Positions 3,924-41,896 of a stretch of DNA of 42,078 nt are shown here, piece by piece. Origin of the DNA: Rhodopirellula sp. GTDB lineage: Bacteria; Planctomycetota; Planctomycetia; Pirellulales; Pirellulaceae. The first letter of the stretch is position 1; each line of letters starts with the position of its first letter. The stretch is taken from the NCBI GenBank assembly GCA_024644085.1, contig JAHELS010000025.1, forward strand, positions 3,557 to 45,634. Reading direction: 5' to 3'. A program made the position numbers and the translations under genes. Below the pieces are notes generated by a model. It was not told where the DNA came from. It did no database searches and saw only the letters and a program-made list of their open reading frames with translations.

Positions 3924-4724
3924 TCATTGACTGGATTGCGTCCAGCGGCGAAGCACGGTCACCGAGATCAAATGGACCAACGCAAACAGGGCCAAACCCA
4001 GCAGTGCCGAAGCGAACAGAGCCGAGATCAGAGCATCCGTTTTTGTCAGTGCCTGCCATCCCGTCATCAATGTCCCCAGTCCGTCGTAATTCGTTCCGTT
4101 GCCGACAAAGAACTCGGCAACGATCGCACCAATCACAGCCAGCCCGGCACTCGTTTTGGTCCCCAGCATCAGATGTCCAACCGCCGAAGGAATCTGTAAC
4201 CGCGTCAGGCGTTTGATGCGCGTCGCACCATACAGTCGAAACAAATCCGAAGTGTCACGATTGACTGACAACAACCCCGTCGTGACGCTGTTGACGATTG
4301 GAAACAGGCAGACGATGACGGTCACGATCACGACGGTACGAAATGTGTAGCCGCTCCAAATGATCAACAAGGGTGCGACGGCGACGATCGGAACGGTTTG
4401 CAAAAGAATCACGTAGGGAAACAACGCCAGACGAAGCTTTCGAGACTGGCTGAACAGCACAGCCAAAAGTGCTCCCAATGCGACGGCCGCCGACAATCCG
4501 ACGATCGCCGCGAGTCCGGTTGAGAATGTCCCCTGAATCAACGCCCGTCGATGTTCAACAGCCGCGTGCCAACATTGCCGAGGCGTCGGCAGCAGCGCCT
4601 TGGGCAACTCGAACACCGCAACGATTCCCTCCCAAGAAACAAGCGCAACCACCGCGACGGCCATTACCAACGCCGCACTCGCCGCTGTATCCCGCGCACT
4701 CCAATTCGGCGTGTCGCCACTCAA
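3924..4724 (-). CDS. ABC transporter permease (SsuC/ThiX-like)
   Basis: This 266-residue inner-membrane protein has about six hydrophobic helices and the binding-protein-dependent permease signature (EAA loop) near 161-183, with LYGATRI followed by the conserved proline and glycine. That loop should contact the ATPase encoded just upstream. The start is a TTG whose last bases overlap the ATPase stop codon (TTGA at 4721-4724), which indicates translational coupling. An ATG at residue 21 (4664) is an alternative but would trim the first helix. With the ATPase and the THI5-like lipoprotein it forms a complete importer. Confidence 0.88.
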   Translation of the reverse strand: MSGDTPNWSARDTAASAALVMAVAVVALVSWEGIVAVFELPKALLPTPRQCWHAAVEHRRALIQGTFSTGLAAIVGLSAAVALGALLAVLFSQSRKLRLALFPYVILLQTVPIVAVAPLLIIWSGYTFRTVVIVTVIVCLFPIVNSVTTGLLSVNRDTSDLFRLYGATRIKRLTRLQIPSAVGHLMLGTKTSAGLAVIGAIVAEFFVGNGTNYDGLGTLMTGWQALTKTDALISALFASALLGLALFALVHLISVTVLRRWTQSSQ

Positions 4725-5538: not shown

Positions 5539-6720
5539 TCAATCTTCCTGGGAACGCTTTGCCGCTTCGCTGAGGTTGCCGGCCGGCTTGAGCGTGAAAC
5601 GTCGACCATCGATCTCGAGCTCAACGTGACGCGGAGTCACCGCCACGACTTCGCCTTTAAGGCTGCCGATCTCGAACTGGTCGCCGACTTTCAAACGCAA
5701 CGTCTTATCGCGTGTTCGCACATGCATCCACGCGGTCCACTCATCACGGCCTTGAACCAGAGCGGTCAACACGGTTTGCGTGGCGTCGTCAAACGCAAGC
5801 TTCGGCGGGTCTTCGGGCGGGGGCGGCGGCGGATCGACCACTTTAATCGTCAACTTCTGCTCAGTGGTACGACGCGGAAACCCGCTGTCGATTGCGCGCA
5901 CAAGAATCTCGAACTCGCGTTTCTCCGGGCTGTCGACTTTCAATGTTCCGCTGCGCGAATCGAGCGAAACGAAATCGGGCGGGGTTTCGACGAACTCAAA
6001 TTTCATCTCGTGTCCCTCGGGATCCTTGAAGGTCAGAGGGGCTGGCGACTCGCGGCCAACAATCGCCTCAATCTCCGGTCGACCCTCATAGCGTGGCGCG
6101 CTGTTGGGTGGTTCGAACAGGTTGCGATTCATGATCGGTTCGGTGTACGCCGTAGCATCTCCATCGACGCGCCACGAAGGTTCCTTTCGCGGTGGCAGGT
6201 TCTCGGGAGCCGTTAACAACGCGATCGCATCGATCGACAGCTCGACACGGAAGTCCCCTTCCTTGGTCGGACGAATCGAAAAGTCGCGGATCCGATGCAA
6301 GTAATCCCGAGCGTAGAAATCGTGCAGCAGACTGATGAAGTTCGGAAAAGTCGTGTTCCCTTGAACGCGAAAGTCGATCTGTTGATACAAACCGCCAATC
6401 GGCCGCGTACTGTTAAGATCGACGACCGCCTTTGTCAAACCGTTCGCCTGGACCATGTTCAACAAGTATTGCTGGTAATTGCTCTGGGCAATTTGCGGGT
6501 CGCCCGGCAACGATCGCGCCATGTATTCGCCCATTTGACGATTGGCGTATTCTCCCTGCAGCTGCTTCTCGACCAACTGTTGCTTTTCGTTCTCCAGGTT
6601 TGCAATCTGATTATTGCGAACCTTCAACGCGGATCGGTACTTGCCGAAACCCCACCACACGACAACGGCGATCATTAAACCGCCGACCAAAATGGCTAGA
6701 AAACGTTCTCGTTGATTCAT
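5539..6720 (-). CDS. GspM/PilO-like assembly protein with cadherin-like and GspC/PilP HR-like domains
   Basis: A 393-residue bitopic inner-membrane protein. Seen in order: one transmembrane helix (8-24), a coiled coil (30-60), a PilO/GspM-type ferredoxin-like domain (about 80-170), a linker with RNLFEPP (199-205), a cadherin or He_PIG-like beta domain (about 225-295), a proline run (297-306) and a small beta domain (about 340-382). The RNLF linker followed by VGDQFEIGSLKGEVVAV recalls the homology region of GspC and PilP. GspM and PilO are normally 160-210 residues, so this is about twice the usual length. It overlaps the preceding gene by ATGA (6717-6720). Inference: it supplies both the GspM and part of the GspC/PilP role in the assembly platform. 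The beta-domain assignments are by eye. Confidence 0.7.
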   Translation of the reverse strand: MNQRERFLAILVGGLMIAVVVWWGFGKYRSALKVRNNQIANLENEKQQLVEKQLQGEYANRQMGEYMARSLPGDPQIAQSNYQQYLLNMVQANGLTKAVVDLNSTRPIGGLYQQIDFRVQGNTTFPNFISLLHDFYARDYLHRIRDFSIRPTKEGDFRVELSIDAIALLTAPENLPPRKEPSWRVDGDATAYTEPIMNRNLFEPPNSAPRYEGRPEIEAIVGRESPAPLTFKDPEGHEMKFEFVETPPDFVSLDSRSGTLKVDSPEKREFEILVRAIDSGFPRRTTEQKLTIKVVDPPPPPPEDPPKLAFDDATQTVLTALVQGRDEWTAWMHVRTRDKTLRLKVGDQFEIGSLKGEVVAVTPRHVELEIDGRRFTLKPAGNLSEAAKRSQED

Positions 6721-13193: not shown

Positions 13194-14687
13194 ATGGTGG
13201 CTCGCGACGATTCCGTCATCCGCGGCAGCTTGATTGCCTGCATGATTTTTCTCGTACTCTCAATCGCGCTCAACTTTTTCCTGTGGCGTTGGGGCGACAC
13301 AAAAGCGACCGAGTCTGATACCGCGGGTGAACGCCTCACCTCGGTTCAGAACCAAGTTGCCACGATGGAGACCCAGGCATCGCGGATGAAATCGATGCTC
13401 GGCATCGGGAGCTTCACCCAGGCCGAAATCGACGAGATGCGGGAAAACCAGTCGGACGATCCCGACATGCAGGCGATCGAAGACCAATTCGCCAAGGACA
13501 TGTCCTACTTCGGCCCCGAAGTCGAAGTGCAGAACCGCAATTACCCCGCATTGCCCGAATACCTTGTCAACGCCATTCGATCGCGAAACGAACAGTACGG
13601 GATGGCACGCGACGAAGCGACCAAGATCCGTACCGACGCCGATGCGGACATTGCCAACGCCAGAACCCAGCAGCAGTTGGCAGAAACCCAGCGTGATGAC
13701 GCAAACAAAAAGGTCGTCAACCTGAGCGACCAGTTCGACGAAGACCGCGCTCGGATGAACAAGGAAAAGGAAGACACCAAGGACAAGTTGAACAAGACGG
13801 TCCAGGACTTCAACGTGTTCCGAAAAACCGCCAGCGACGAAAATACAAAATTGTCACAAAAGACTCGCCAGTTGCAGGGAACGATCGACACACAGAAACT
13901 GCAGCTCAACGATTTGCGCAGTGACAATTTTGAAACTACCCAGGGCGAAATTCGATACGTCGTTCGTGGCGGCAATATCACCACGATCAACCTCGGCTCG
14001 GCCGACGCCTTGCGTCCCGGTATCACCTTTGGCGTGATTGACGGCGACGAGACGCGATTGCAGGACGCCAAGGTCAAGGCAACGATCCAGGTCACTCAGA
14101 TCCAGGGTCCCCACCTCGCACAAGCACGCGTGATCGCGCGACCGGAAATCCGAAACCCGATCATCCCGGGCGACAAGATCTATTCGCCGTTCTGGGCTCC
14201 GGGACGCGTCGTCAAGATCGCCCTGGCGGGCGAAATCGACATTGACGGCGACTCTCGACCCGACAACGACAAGCTCAAGGGCCAGATCAAAGCAGCGGGC
14301 GCAACGGTCGCCGCGGAGATCTCACCCTCGGGTGTGGTCACCGGCACACTCGACCCAAGCATTCGATTCCTGGTCATCGGCGAAGACCCCGAGCTCGGCG
14401 GAGCCGATGACGACCAGAAAGCGCAGATCGTTGCGGCAATGGGTAGAACAAAGGCGAAGGCAGCCGAGCTGGGACTGACAATCATTCCTGCCTGGAAACT
14501 GCTCAGCTACCTCAAGACGATCGACGACACGCTGACCACACCACTGGGATCGGCGGTACGGGGTGAGGACTTTCCTGCGGTTTCGACGCCGGGAACGACG
14601 GCATCACGCATTCCGCCCGACATTGCCGATCTTTACAAGCGCGATGACTCGGGAATTCAGAAGGACAACAATATCCTTCCTCCTTAG
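13194..14687 (+). CDS. Membrane-anchored coiled-coil protein with a BRCT-like domain
   Basis: A 497-residue protein that I do not recognise as a named gene. An N-terminal helix (12-31) anchors it in the membrane with little cytoplasmic sequence. Charged heptad-like regions follow (about 40-70 and 135-240, rich in K, E, D, Q, N), indicating a long coiled coil. A short beta segment with NLGSADALRPGITFGVID (266-283) comes next. Residues 340-445 resemble a BRCT fold: a beta strand and glycine (IALAGE), a helix with GAT(V), LVIG, then KAKAAELGLTIIPAWKLLSYL-like spacing at 420-440. Inside it is an acidic loop DIDGDSRPDND (349-359) of calcium-binding type. It is transcribed divergently from gspG, so a link to the secretion system or cell envelope is possible but unproven. 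Confidence 0.65.
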   Translation: MVARDDSVIRGSLIACMIFLVLSIALNFFLWRWGDTKATESDTAGERLTSVQNQVATMETQASRMKSMLGIGSFTQAEIDEMRENQSDDPDMQAIEDQFAKDMSYFGPEVEVQNRNYPALPEYLVNAIRSRNEQYGMARDEATKIRTDADADIANARTQQQLAETQRDDANKKVVNLSDQFDEDRARMNKEKEDTKDKLNKTVQDFNVFRKTASDENTKLSQKTRQLQGTIDTQKLQLNDLRSDNFETTQGEIRYVVRGGNITTINLGSADALRPGITFGVIDGDETRLQDAKVKATIQVTQIQGPHLAQARVIARPEIRNPIIPGDKIYSPFWAPGRVVKIALAGEIDIDGDSRPDNDKLKGQIKAAGATVAAEISPSGVVTGTLDPSIRFLVIGEDPELGGADDDQKAQIVAAMGRTKAKAAELGLTIIPAWKLLSYLKTIDDTLTTPLGSAVRGEDFPAVSTPGTTASRIPPDIADLYKRDDSGIQKDNNILPP

Positions 14688-32256: not shown

Positions 32257-33768
32257 CTAAGAGATTGGCGACACTTCCATCGCGGTTCCCATGGTCACGC
32301 CCGGAGCGGGTAGATTGCTCGACCCCTGCAGGTAGATATCGATCGATCTCGCCGCTCCCCGACCCTCGTTAATCGCCCAGACGACGAGGCTCTGTCCCCG
32401 TCTGCAATCACCGGCCGCAAAAACGCCGTCGATGTTGGTCGCGAATTTGCCGTGGCTCGCCTGAAAATTGCTGCGCGGGTCAACTTCCAGACCAATCGCC
32501 TCGGCAACGTACTGTTCCGGCCCCAGAAAACCCATCGCTAACAGGATCAACTGGGCGGGCCATTCCTTCTCGCTCCCGTCGATCTCCTCCATCGACCAAG
32601 CGCCAGCTTTGTTCTTTGTCCAGCGAACTTCCACCGTCTTGATCCCCCGCAGATTCCCCTGGTCGTCCAACAGAAACTCTTTACTGAGAATCTGGTATTC
32701 ACGCGGGTCTCGACCGAATTTTGCCTCAGCTTCCTCGTGACCGTAGTCAACGCGAAACACGCGAGGCCATTCCGGCCACGGGTTATCCTCGGCCCGCTGC
32801 TCGGGCGGCTTGGGCAGAAGTTCAAAGTTAACGAGGCTGCGACACCCGTGGCGGATGCTGGTGCCGATACAGTCGGTCCCGGTGTCACCACCGCCGATGA
32901 CGATCACATCTTTACCTTCGGCACTGATGAACCCGTCACCGAGCGAATCGCCGTGAACAATCTGTTGTGTATTCGCAGTCAAGAATTCCATTGCAAAACG
33001 AACACCATCGACGTTGCGATTGGGGATCGGCAAATCCCGTGGCTTCGTTGCACCGCAGGCAAGCAACAATGCATCGAAATCGTCCCGCAGTTGTTTGGGG
33101 TCAACGTTATTGCCAACGTCCGCACCGGTGACAAAGTGAATCCCTTCGTCCGTCATCTTGTCGACCCGACGTTGCACCGCCTCCTTGGAAAGCTTCATGT
33201 TGGGGATTCCATATTGCAGCAATCCACCGATCCGATCGGCCCGTTCGTAAACCGTGACCTCGTGGCCGACCTGGTTCAATTGGTCGGCGGCCGCCAGCCC
33301 GGCCGGACCGCTGCCGATGATCGCAACTTTCTTGCCTGAGCGATTTTCGGGTGGTTGAGGCGTGATCCACCCCTCGGCCCAAGCCCGATCGACAATGGCA
33401 TTCTCGATGTTCTTGATCGTTACCGGTGGATCGGTGATCCCCAACACGCATGCTCCTTCACAAGGCGCCGGACAAGTTCGTCCGGTGAACTCGGGGAAGT
33501 TGTTGGTCTTGTGCAACCGCTCGCTGGCTTCTTTCCAACGATTGTTGTAGACGAGGTCATTCCATTCGGGGATCAGGTTATCGATCGGACATCCGGTCGA
33601 AGACTGACAGAACGGAACGCCGCAATCCATGCATCGGGCGCCTTGTTCGCGGAGATGATCCACGCGCGGTTCGGTGTAAATCTCGTCGTAGTCATTGATG
33701 CGCACGACCGGCAGGCGCCACGGCACCTTCTTGCGGTCAAACTCCTTAAATCCAGTCGGCTTACCCAT
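32257..33768 (-). CDS. gltD: Glutamate synthase (NADPH) small subunit
   Basis: A 503-residue flavoprotein. The N-terminal domain carries the iron-sulfur cysteines C46, C49, C54, C60, then C99, C103 and C107 ([25 protein letters not shown]). A FAD-binding [13 protein letters not shown] follows near 152, an NADPH motif IGGGDTGTD near 292, and a second FAD segment [19 protein letters not shown] near 455-473. It oxidises NADPH and passes electrons through its clusters to GltB for ammonia assimilation. It is 61 bases downstream of gltB on the same strand and is clearly part of one operon with it. ATG at 33768. Confidence 0.96.
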
Positions 33769-33829: not shown

Positions 33830-38410
<4,581 letters not shown>

Positions 38411-38500
38411 TGAGATCTCGAATTCGTTCAATAGTGCGACGCGATTGGCGCCGAAGACCCCTCGCAGAGGCTTTCCGCGGCGGCTTCGTGCGGTCGCTCG

Positions 38501-39490
38501 TTAGGCGACAACCGAGGCATTGCTGAGCGCCTCACCCGTCGCAGCCTCCGCGGCAGACTTCCCGCTGCCGGATCTACTTCGCTTTTCCGATTTCAACGGC
38601 CGCCCCAGGAGGAGAGAGCCGAACTCGCTCGCGGCTCTGCTGAGACGGCCCGATCGCCGGAAGATAATGCCCAGCGGACGCGTCATGCGCAACTCGCGGC
38701 ACGCGACCACTCGCAATGAACCATTCGCCGTTTCGCGGCGCACGGCCGCCTCGGGAACAATGCCAATGCCCCGATTCGCTTGAATTGCGCGGACCATCGA
38801 GTCGGCGTTATCAAACTCCATGCGAATGTTGACCTCGATGCCAGCCTTGGCCAGTGCCTTGTCAATCTCCTCTCGCAACTGCAGCCCGCGGGCAAAACCG
38901 ATCATGCTGATTCCTTTCAACTGCGACATCGATACCGCATGCTGGTCGGCCAATGGATGCTCGGCAGCGCACACCAGCCGCATCGGCTCCTGCTGCCACA
39001 ACACGTGCTGCAACTCTTTTGTGCTGCGGGGAAAACTGACCAACCCAAGCTCGACTTCGCCGCCCACCGTCATCTCGAACACTCGGTCGTTGGATCCAAA
39101 CTCGCTCTTGACGTCCACCTCCGGATGAAGACGCGCAAAAGCCTCGGTCGCCTCCGGCATGTAACTCAGACCAACCGAGACAATGGTGCCAACGGTGATT
39201 TGACCGCTGAGCTGCTGGCTCGTGCTGCGAACCTCCTGCTCGAGACGCTGATAACTGCGGAGAATGCCGCGCACGCCCCGCAGGTACGTCTTGCCAGCAG
39301 CCGTCAGCACCAGGGGGCGCTTGGAGCGGTCAATCAATTCGACACCCAGCGACTCCTCCAGGTGTTGGATCGCCTGAGAGACCGCACTCTGAGTCAATCG
39401 ATGAACACTCGCCGCTTTGGAAAAGCTACGCTGCTCAGCGATGGTGCAGAAAAGTTCGAGAGTACGAAATTGCAACGCCCACCCTCGCAT
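38501..39490 (-). CDS. LysR-family transcriptional regulator, candidate regulator of gltBD
   Basis: A 329-residue regulator with the LysR winged HTH at 7-66 (FCTIAEQRSFSKAASVHRLTQ begins it, then SAVSQAIQHLEESLGVELIDR) and an effector-binding domain at about 95-300 (SGQITVGTIVSVGLSYMPE and onward). The last 30 residues are a basic, Ala/Ser-rich tail. It lies upstream of gltBD on the same strand, like an operon, unlike B. subtilis gltC, which is divergent from gltA. Its own upstream region holds an imperfect dyad (39497-39541), which suits autoregulation. The effector is unknown; a carbon-nitrogen signal such as 2-oxoglutarate would fit if it controls gltBD. Other LysR classes (CysB or CbbR-like) cannot be excluded. 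Confidence 0.88.
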   Translation of the reverse strand: MRGWALQFRTLELFCTIAEQRSFSKAASVHRLTQSAVSQAIQHLEESLGVELIDRSKRPLVLTAAGKTYLRGVRGILRSYQRLEQEVRSTSQQLSGQITVGTIVSVGLSYMPEATEAFARLHPEVDVKSEFGSNDRVFEMTVGGEVELGLVSFPRSTKELQHVLWQQEPMRLVCAAEHPLADQHAVSMSQLKGISMIGFARGLQLREEIDKALAKAGIEVNIRMEFDNADSMVRAIQANRGIGIVPEAAVRRETANGSLRVVACRELRMTRPLGIIFRRSGRLSRAASEFGSLLLGRPLKSEKRSRSGSGKSAAEAATGEALSNASVVA

Positions 39491-39970: not shown

Positions 39971-41896
39971 TCAGGTCGCATTATCGCGTCGAGACAGATC
40001 TTTGACCGACTCGATCAACGCGATGGCGTGCTCGACCGGCGTCTCTTTCAGCACGCCGTGGCCGAGGTTGAAGATGTGTCCGGGCCGACCTGAGACACTC
40101 TGCAGCAGGTGGTCGACCGCATCGCGAATCACATCGGGCTCGGCCAACAGGACGCCGGGATCCAGGTTTCCCTGGACCGAACAATCGTGTCCGATCCTCT
40201 GCCATGCGACATCGAGCGGTATTCGCCAATCGACGCCGACAACGGTCCGCCGGTCACCGCGAAGCAGCGGCAGCAGCTCCGGGTTCCCGGTCGCAAAATT
40301 GATCACAGGCACACCGGGCGCGATCCCCGAGATGATCTGTTTCATCCACGGCAACACATACCTCGAGTAATCATACGGCGAAAGGCATCCCGCCCAACTG
40401 TCAAAGAGTTGGACGCACTGCGCTCCGGCTTCGATCTGGTGATTGAGATAGACCGTGATGGCGTAGGAAAGTTTTTCCATCAATGCATCCCAACCTCCGC
40501 CGTCGCTGTGCATCAGCTTCTTGGTATGCACGTACTGGCGGCTGCCGCCGCCCTCGATCGCGTAACTCGCCAGCGTGAACGGGGCTCCGGCGAATCCGAT
40601 CAACGGAATCGATTCGGGTAGATCTACGCGAGTCTGGCGAACCGTCTCGTAGACAAAGTCGAGTTCTTCGGGATGGTCCAAGTCCTTGACGCGGGCAATG
40701 TCACCAACTTCGCGTACCGGGTTGTGGATCACGGGGCCATCGCCTGGGGCGAATTCGAGTTCAAGCCCCATGGGAACAAGAATCGGCAGCAGATCGGAAA
40801 AAATGATCGCCGCGTCAACACCCAACCGATCGACCGCCGTGCACATGACCTCGCTGCACAGCTTGGGTTGGCGGCAAAGTTCGAGGAACGATTGTTTGGC
40901 GCGTACTTCGCGGTACTCAGCCATGTAGCGTCCGGCTTGTCGCATCAACCACACCGGCGTCCGCTCGGTCGCCTCGCCTCGACATGCCCTCATGAAAAGA
41001 CTGGACTCGGATGCGTGGCCGACACGGTCCTGGCTCGGTGATGTCACGCGCCATCGTCGCTTCGCATCGACCATCGATACACCACGCTTGGCCGATTCAA
41101 TGACCAGGTGGCCCATTTTCGGATGGCTTGGTTCCAGGTCAACGTGGATGTCGCACTCTTCAAGCATCTGCGAGGTCGTTGGACCGATCGACGCGATCAC
41201 GGTGTGGTGAAGACCATCCCGAAGCTCGTCGACGATGCCGAGTTGCTCGGCCATGCGCAGCATGTTGACAACCTGGTGCGCGCTGGTCAAAAGCAACATG
41301 TCGCGCTCGCCTGCTGCGAGCGCACGCACATTGGATTCCAGCGGCCGCGTATCCTCGGGCAACTCCCATCCGTAGACCCTCACTGATTCGACCGTCGCTC
41401 CGCGTGCCTCCAATCCCGCTACCAACGAAGCATTGGTGACGCCATACTCCTGTAATCCGACGACCTGGTTGGCGATGGGGATCTCCGCGTCAATCAATTG
41501 CAGCAATTCTCGCCAAGTGTTTGGTTCGGGAACTTTGTGCGTCGACGTGACACCGAATTCTCGCATCGCTGCAGCCGGCTTCGGCCCGCGGCAAATGGTG
41601 ATCACATCCGACATCGAGTCCAAAAACCGCTGCTGGTCGAGATGTCGTTCGATCGCCCGCATCAAGTAACGAAATCCAACCCCGGTCATCAGGATCACGA
41701 CGCTTACATGCCCGGTCATCAGCCGGTAGGCGAAATCGATGGCACTACGATTCGATTCGATTGGGACCTCGCGCATCGAAGGGCTGACGTGGGCCTCACC
41801 ACCGCTGCGTGTGATCAGGTTCGCCATATCCTCGGCCCTGCGACTTTCCAGCGCAGCGATTCGGAGTCCGGAATAATCAGCGTCAGTTTTTGGCAT
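39971..41896 (-). CDS. hemE: Fused uroporphyrinogen-III synthase and uroporphyrinogen decarboxylase
   Basis: A single 641-residue frame. Residues about 9-272 form a HemD-like two-lobe domain: GLRIAALESRRAEDMANLI, ILMTGVGFRYLM (68-79), the second lobe with VVGLQEYG (145-152) and LLLTSAHQVVNML (201-213), then SIGPTT (236-241). A linker (about 273-297) leads to a full HemE domain (298-641) with MRQAGRYMAEYRE (318-330; R319, R323), FSDLLPI (366-372; D368), GFAGAPFTLASYAIEGGGS, a block in mid-domain, and NLGHGV near the end. HemD closes the tetrapyrrole ring with D-ring inversion; HemE removes four carboxylates to give coproporphyrinogen III. These are consecutive haem pathway steps. ATG at 41896. 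Domain calls are firm for HemE and good for HemD, which is always divergent. Confidence 0.9.
   Translation of the reverse strand: MPKTDADYSGLRIAALESRRAEDMANLITRSGGEAHVSPSMREVPIESNRSAIDFAYRLMTGHVSVVILMTGVGFRYLMRAIERHLDQQRFLDSMSDVITICRGPKPAAAMREFGVTSTHKVPEPNTWRELLQLIDAEIPIANQVVGLQEYGVTNASLVAGLEARGATVESVRVYGWELPEDTRPLESNVRALAAGERDMLLLTSAHQVVNMLRMAEQLGIVDELRDGLHHTVIASIGPTTSQMLEECDIHVDLEPSHPKMGHLVIESAKRGVSMVDAKRRWRVTSPSQDRVGHASESSLFMRACRGEATERTPVWLMRQAGRYMAEYREVRAKQSFLELCRQPKLCSEVMCTAVDRLGVDAAIIFSDLLPILVPMGLELEFAPGDGPVIHNPVREVGDIARVKDLDHPEELDFVYETVRQTRVDLPESIPLIGFAGAPFTLASYAIEGGGSRQYVHTKKLMHSDGGGWDALMEKLSYAITVYLNHQIEAGAQCVQLFDSWAGCLSPYDYSRYVLPWMKQIISGIAPGVPVINFATGNPELLPLLRGDRRTVVGVDWRIPLDVAWQRIGHDCSVQGNLDPGVLLAEPDVIRDAVDHLLQSVSGRPGHIFNLGHGVLKETPVEHAIALIESVKDLSRRDNAT

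Follow-up and report, generated by a model that had tools for sequence, protein, structure and literature searches.

Haem, sirohaem, and B12 all derive from uroporphyrinogen III, and fusions of neighbouring tetrapyrrole enzymes are a known kind: HemC-HemD, CobA-HemD, and CysG-type fusions are described in the portions of the literature covered here (PMC4921024, Table 3; PMC11237513). The hemDE gene considered below resembles a HemC-HemD fusion in that neighbouring steps around HemD are joined, but it links HemD to the following enzyme, whereas HemC-HemD links it to the preceding one. Like the SUMT-HemD (CobA-HemD) fusion, it attaches HemD to the first enzyme of one of the uroporphyrinogen III branches; in SUMT-HemD, however, the partner is the sirohaem/B12 methyltransferase, it is placed on the N-terminal side, and the HemD belongs to another group. 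A HemD-HemE fusion was found neither in the portions covered of PMC11237513, PMC4921024, PMC7242693, PMC4870792, and PMC10991733 nor among the matches listed in literature searches at the abstract level, subscription papers and a 2017 review apart. Provisionally, we treat this fusion as undescribed; domain-architecture databases may well list the combination of HEM4 and URO-D. The SUMT-HemD fusion also occurs in the same genome, and it is in this paired, branch-dedicated arrangement that the interest lies.

The gene is located in a 42,078-nt stretch of Rhodopirellula sp. DNA, referred to below as the window, where its features map as follows:

39971..41896, minus strand: hemDE fusion gene, 641 aa plus stop (ORF, Pfam, NCBIfam)
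41102..41830, minus strand: HemD (HEM4, uroporphyrinogen-III synthase) domain, residues 23–265 (Pfam HEM4, 138.4 bits)
41003..41101, minus strand: linker, residues 266–298, including Met275 at 41072–41074 (alignment of 76 fusions)
39998..41002, minus strand: HemE (URO-D, uroporphyrinogen decarboxylase) domain, residues 299–633 (Pfam URO-D, 402.9 bits; TIGR01464)

The hemDE ORF begins with ATG and runs for 641 codons without an internal stop. HEM4 (E = 2.7e-40, profile positions 2 to 230 of 231, gathering cut-off 27.5 bits) and URO-D (E = 1.4e-120, profile positions 4 to 345 of 346) are the only Pfam domains of its product; a SUMT/TP_methylase domain is absent. Each domain is close to complete and scores far above chance. 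The earlier note's reading of a HemD-like domain and a complete HemE in one frame thus stands, and residues 1 to 275, where the lack of a HEM4 match would have counted against it, do contain one.

The HemE half scores 393 bits against the NCBIfam hemE equivalog TIGR01464, above the cut-off of 302.95, and matches solved uroporphyrinogen decarboxylases in the PDB (best E = 4.2e-80). Conservation was assessed in an alignment of 76 fusions, comprising the window protein and the fused named loci described below (75 of 77; two truncated loci were excluded). R319, R323, D368, Y445, and H613, which we take to be the catalytic Arg37, Arg41, Asp86, Tyr164, and His339 of human HemE, are invariant in all 76. 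The HemE half therefore retains the catalytic residues of stand-alone HemE (TIGR01464; PDB 2inf and 1uro), from which hemDE differs by the extra N-terminal HemD domain.

The HemD half falls below every NCBIfam HemD equivalog cut-off. Its best match is NF005568, as is also the case for the HemD part of a fusion from another class (genome G136, see below) and for a lone relative, L221; unlike NF005568/PRK07239-type HemD, it reaches 132.4 bits against a cut-off of 273 and covers profile positions 7 to 269 of 381 only, and is filed under the HEM4 family rather than the NF005568 equivalog. Falling short of these cut-offs is of little informative value, since the SUMT-type HemD of the window genome likewise misses them. 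A profile of the HemD half built from 21 relatives matches the PDB uroporphyrinogen-III synthases 3d8n, 1wcx, and 1wcw, presumably all Thermus chains, with E values from 1.9e-16 to 3.1e-16. The TGVG, RGxK, and QxYG motifs and a tyrosine align with these solved chains. Eight of the nine motif positions checked (T71, G74, R103, G104, K106, Q149, G152, and Y175) are invariant in 76/76 fusions, and the ninth, G72, is kept in 75/76. We assume that the motif tyrosine is the catalytically important Tyr of HemD; a literature search on this residue returned no HemD item among the matches listed. Averaged over columns, the commonest residue has a frequency of 0.73 in HemD and 0.76 in HemE, compared to 0.32 in the linker.

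This conservation bears on the idea that the HemD domain has degenerated or serves in regulation, such as in sensing hydroxymethylbilane or haem, while SUMT-HemD makes all uroporphyrinogen III. The low NF005568 score is consistent with such a role, as is the existence of four genomes of the same order (G043, G052, G055, and G415) that have HemE without a HemE-type HemD. However, the domain is nearly full length, its motifs are retained, its column conservation approaches that of HemE, and the SUMT-type HemD fails the same cut-offs. We consider loss of synthase function improbable.

The distribution of the fusion was estimated in 60 genomes, consisting of the window's own genome and 59 relatives up to the order level. 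HemD and HemE share one open frame in 52 of them (frames checked for 33 + 19), including six single-contig genomes (G003, G027, G032, G041, G042, and G059). Among further genomes of the same order in a phylum-wide sample, 8/9 are fused (frames checked); the exception, G415, combines HemE with one HemD, of the SUMT type. A scan of genome contigs gave 557 confirmed stretches, and 77 of the best 80, all bearing planctomycete titles, are fused. Named carriers include Rhodopirellula baltica, R. maiorica, Neorhodopirellula pilleata, Roseimaritima sediminicola, and Botrimarina hoheduenensis, which we take to belong to the order Pirellulales. The window assembly is a draft of 468 contigs with 5.5% contamination, so a frame created by contamination or by an error of sequencing or assembly had to be considered. 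Conservation of the same frame over so many assemblies excludes a frameshift or wrongly joined ORFs and leaves an artefact of any kind with a negligible probability.

The remaining relatives show several other states. In G045, hemD and hemE occupy different frames, a single base separating stop from start (TGA A ATG; L036, around 4390–4400); this may be a coupled pair of ancestral origin or the result of a later split. The HemD and HemE halves of G056 lie at contig ends and may be fused or split. G043, G052, and G055 contain HemE without the HemE-type HemD. G058 is without a HemE match (genome 88% complete), only fragments were detected in G008 (77% complete), and no clear gene in G014 (74% complete). 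The three exceptions among the named records are L160, located at a contig end; L212, with HemE in several frames; and L190, where a HemE-type HemD stands alone and the ~640 bases left before the contig end contain no hemE. The physical HemD-HemE fusion is not indispensable, as follows from the split in G045, the lone HemD of L190, and genomes with only a SUMT-type HemD.

Whole-genome searches covered Planctomycetota (plus built-in controls). Of the 392 genomes sampled across the phylum, 214 give a match at 1e-20, and at least 11 of the matches listed are fused (G136, the window's own genome, and nine others of its order). Pfam finds URO-D alone in five further long HemE frames (G291, G105, G398, G258, and G269). 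Viral contigs gave no match to the fusion in a search reaching close relatives only. While 92 plasmid records match, none covers 80% of the query; of ten of these matches, nine begin at residue 295 or later and one at residue 258.

Exactly two HEM4 matches and one URO-D match are present in the window genome. The second HEM4 domain is located on contig C285, C-terminal to a SUMT domain; no second HemE was detected in the assembly (94.6% complete, 5.5% contaminated). The earlier note had suggested looking for a separate hemD: a second HemD does exist, but as part of the SUMT fusion rather than as a stand-alone gene. Stand-alone second copies of hemD and hemE, which would have spoken against its reading, are accordingly absent from the assembly.

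A HEM4 search was run on 42 of the 60 genomes, chosen by us. Two HEM4 genes were found in 37 of the 42, namely 35 with the HemE fusion as well as G045 and G056. Four genomes (G043, G052, G055, and G058) have the SUMT-type HemD only, and in G016 the HemE fusion is the sole HEM4 match. The SUMT match of G016 is fragmentary and stops at base 6123 on a contig of 6128 bases, and its SUMT-HemD is probably cut off by the contig end. SUMT lies beside HEM4 in all 30 loci fetched from this set (one truncated), and five more genomes have TIGR01469 (SUMT) in the same frame as HEM4; in six (G005, G021, G031, G039, G047, and G050), the SUMT type was assigned by frame length alone. Among 26 genomes chosen mostly from outside the order, HEM4 passes the cut-off in two genes in 19 and in a single gene in seven. 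Besides G016 and G415, the latter are G419, G120, and G189, which are outside the order and have HemE with a SUMT-type HemD as the only HemD, and G127 and G082, with a single lone HemD each. Since G043, G052, G055, G415, G419, G120, and G189 have only the SUMT-type HemD, one HemD must serve both branches in these genomes.

HemC was single in 15/15 genomes. One over-cut-off SUMT locus was present in 14 of the 15, each sharing a frame with HEM4; the fifteenth is G016. Ferrochelatase was matched in 13/14 genomes, 12 of them over the cut-off, including the window genome, and in G043 no match was detected.

The relationship of the two HemD types was analysed in a tree of 107 HemD domains, built by a quick method with SH-aLRT support only. 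The short L118 was dropped, and repeat loci of one gene were omitted except for L131, which is identical to L085. The 53 HemE-type domains fall on one side of a branch of length 3.0 with support of 100, while 52 SUMT-type domains and two lone HemDs fall on the other; the SUMT-type domains separate from the two lone HemDs with an SH-aLRT of only 73. The depth of the split between HemE-type and SUMT-type domains makes a recent duplication of HemD unlikely.

In a sister family of the same class (f21), the HemE-type HemD is encoded by a separate gene. Of the 22 genomes examined, 12 have it immediately upstream of hemE, on the same strand (7/17 in one set and 5/5 in a second set chosen for long frames). 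An unrooted, modestly supported tree of 66 HemE domains requires three changes for the fused state. The likeliest history is that neighbouring genes were fused near the base of the order and that the fusion was later split or lost in some members; other histories are possible.

The fusion of G136, a genome of another class, has 44% identity to that of the window and lies outside the other fusions on the HemE tree, where its long branch makes the placement unsure. In a sample of its class, 10/76 genomes (G136 included) match its fusion, and the other 66 have no match at 1e-15. No other fusion was found in this sample as judged by match extent, and an independent fusion or a transfer is therefore likely for G136. 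There, a ferrochelatase gene and a protoporphyrinogen-oxidase-type gene come after hemDE on the same strand (L232, 12469–16995, contig C29), an arrangement that ties the G136 fusion to haem.

The part of the protein between the two domains is variable. Across the 76 fusions, the linker is 33 to 69 residues long and its sequence is poorly conserved. According to the earlier note, a methionine at residue 276 might allow HemE to be made alone; the methionine is in fact at position 275. It is present in only 4/76 aligned fusions, and no ribosome-binding site is seen in the 30 bases preceding it, so separate production of HemE from this methionine is not supported as a general feature. A methionine occurs somewhere in the linker of 45/76 fusions, and an internal start may therefore occur in some species.

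Taken with the reactions known for the HemD, HemE, and SUMT families, these observations suggest that the hemDE product is probably a bifunctional enzyme paired with one branch of the pathway. Two bifunctional proteins would each draw on the hydroxymethylbilane made by the single HemC. In hemDE, the N-terminal HemD domain would close and isomerise hydroxymethylbilane to uroporphyrinogen III, which the C-terminal HemE domain would decarboxylate to coproporphyrinogen III, towards haem. The SUMT-HemD protein would likewise convert hydroxymethylbilane to uroporphyrinogen III and methylate it to precorrin-2 for sirohaem and B12. In each branch, the first committed enzyme would then be joined to a uroporphyrinogen III synthase of its own, and the flux may be split at hydroxymethylbilane, depending on how abundant each fusion is relative to the other and on how their affinities compare. 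Left to itself, hydroxymethylbilane cyclises to isomer I, a dead end, and this would favour ample HemD activity.

The same domains could also form a plain bifunctional fusion without channelling, providing equal amounts and co-expression of the two enzymes while both HemDs feed one shared pool of uroporphyrinogen III. This alternative overlaps with the branch-paired enzyme and differs from it on channelling and flux only. It is consistent with the variable linker, with the split genes and missing HemE-type HemD of some genomes of the order, and with the frequent adjacency of hemD and hemE in the sister family. On the other hand, one of two merely redundant copies should be lost over time, while 37/42 genomes retain two HEM4 genes, and the two HemDs form separate tree groups, each joined to a different branch enzyme. 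We rate a shared pool as a serious contender, somewhat short of an even chance.

Returning to the branch-paired enzyme, the earlier note had proposed that uroporphyrinogen III passes straight to the decarboxylase, bypassing the route to sirohaem and B12. A bias of uroporphyrinogen III towards haem gains weight from the finding that a separate HemD, fused to SUMT, belongs to the sirohaem/B12 branch, and preferential transfer between the two domains may occur. Fusion alone need not yield channelling, and the point is disputed in the part of the literature covered (PMC4921024, section 11). The variation of the linker in both length and sequence disfavours a finely built tunnel, and a strong channel is further disfavoured by the genomes that lack the HemE-type HemD. 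The occurrence of two HemD groups and two HEM4 genes alongside one HemC suggests that the working branch point may be hydroxymethylbilane rather than uroporphyrinogen III. In its full form, this proposal has the branch point moved one step upstream, with two fused synthases competing for hydroxymethylbilane and uroporphyrinogen III kept private and channelled in both branches; we put it forward tentatively and regard it as, on balance, doubtful.

The natural pair of fusions provides a system, already in place, in which to test whether joining enzymes covalently divides the flux where a pathway branches, and hemDE is a natural single-chain candidate for the conversion of hydroxymethylbilane to coproporphyrinogen III. 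It may also serve to mark the lineage, with intermediate states to be seen in the neighbouring genes, the split genes, and the cases of absence.

Elsewhere in the window, two long ORFs, at 13194–14687 (plus strand, 497 aa) and 5539–6720 (minus strand, 393 aa), have no Pfam match at 0.01. Six ORFs flanking the fusion, taken from four named loci (L139, L151, L206, and L183), included no haem-like gene, recurring family, or glutamate synthase gene. In the window, genes for the large (33830–38431, minus strand) and small (32257–33768, minus strand) subunits of glutamate synthase lie downstream of hemDE, with a gene for a LysR-type regulator (38501–39490, minus strand) in between. Glutamate is the precursor of tetrapyrroles in the C5 pathway.
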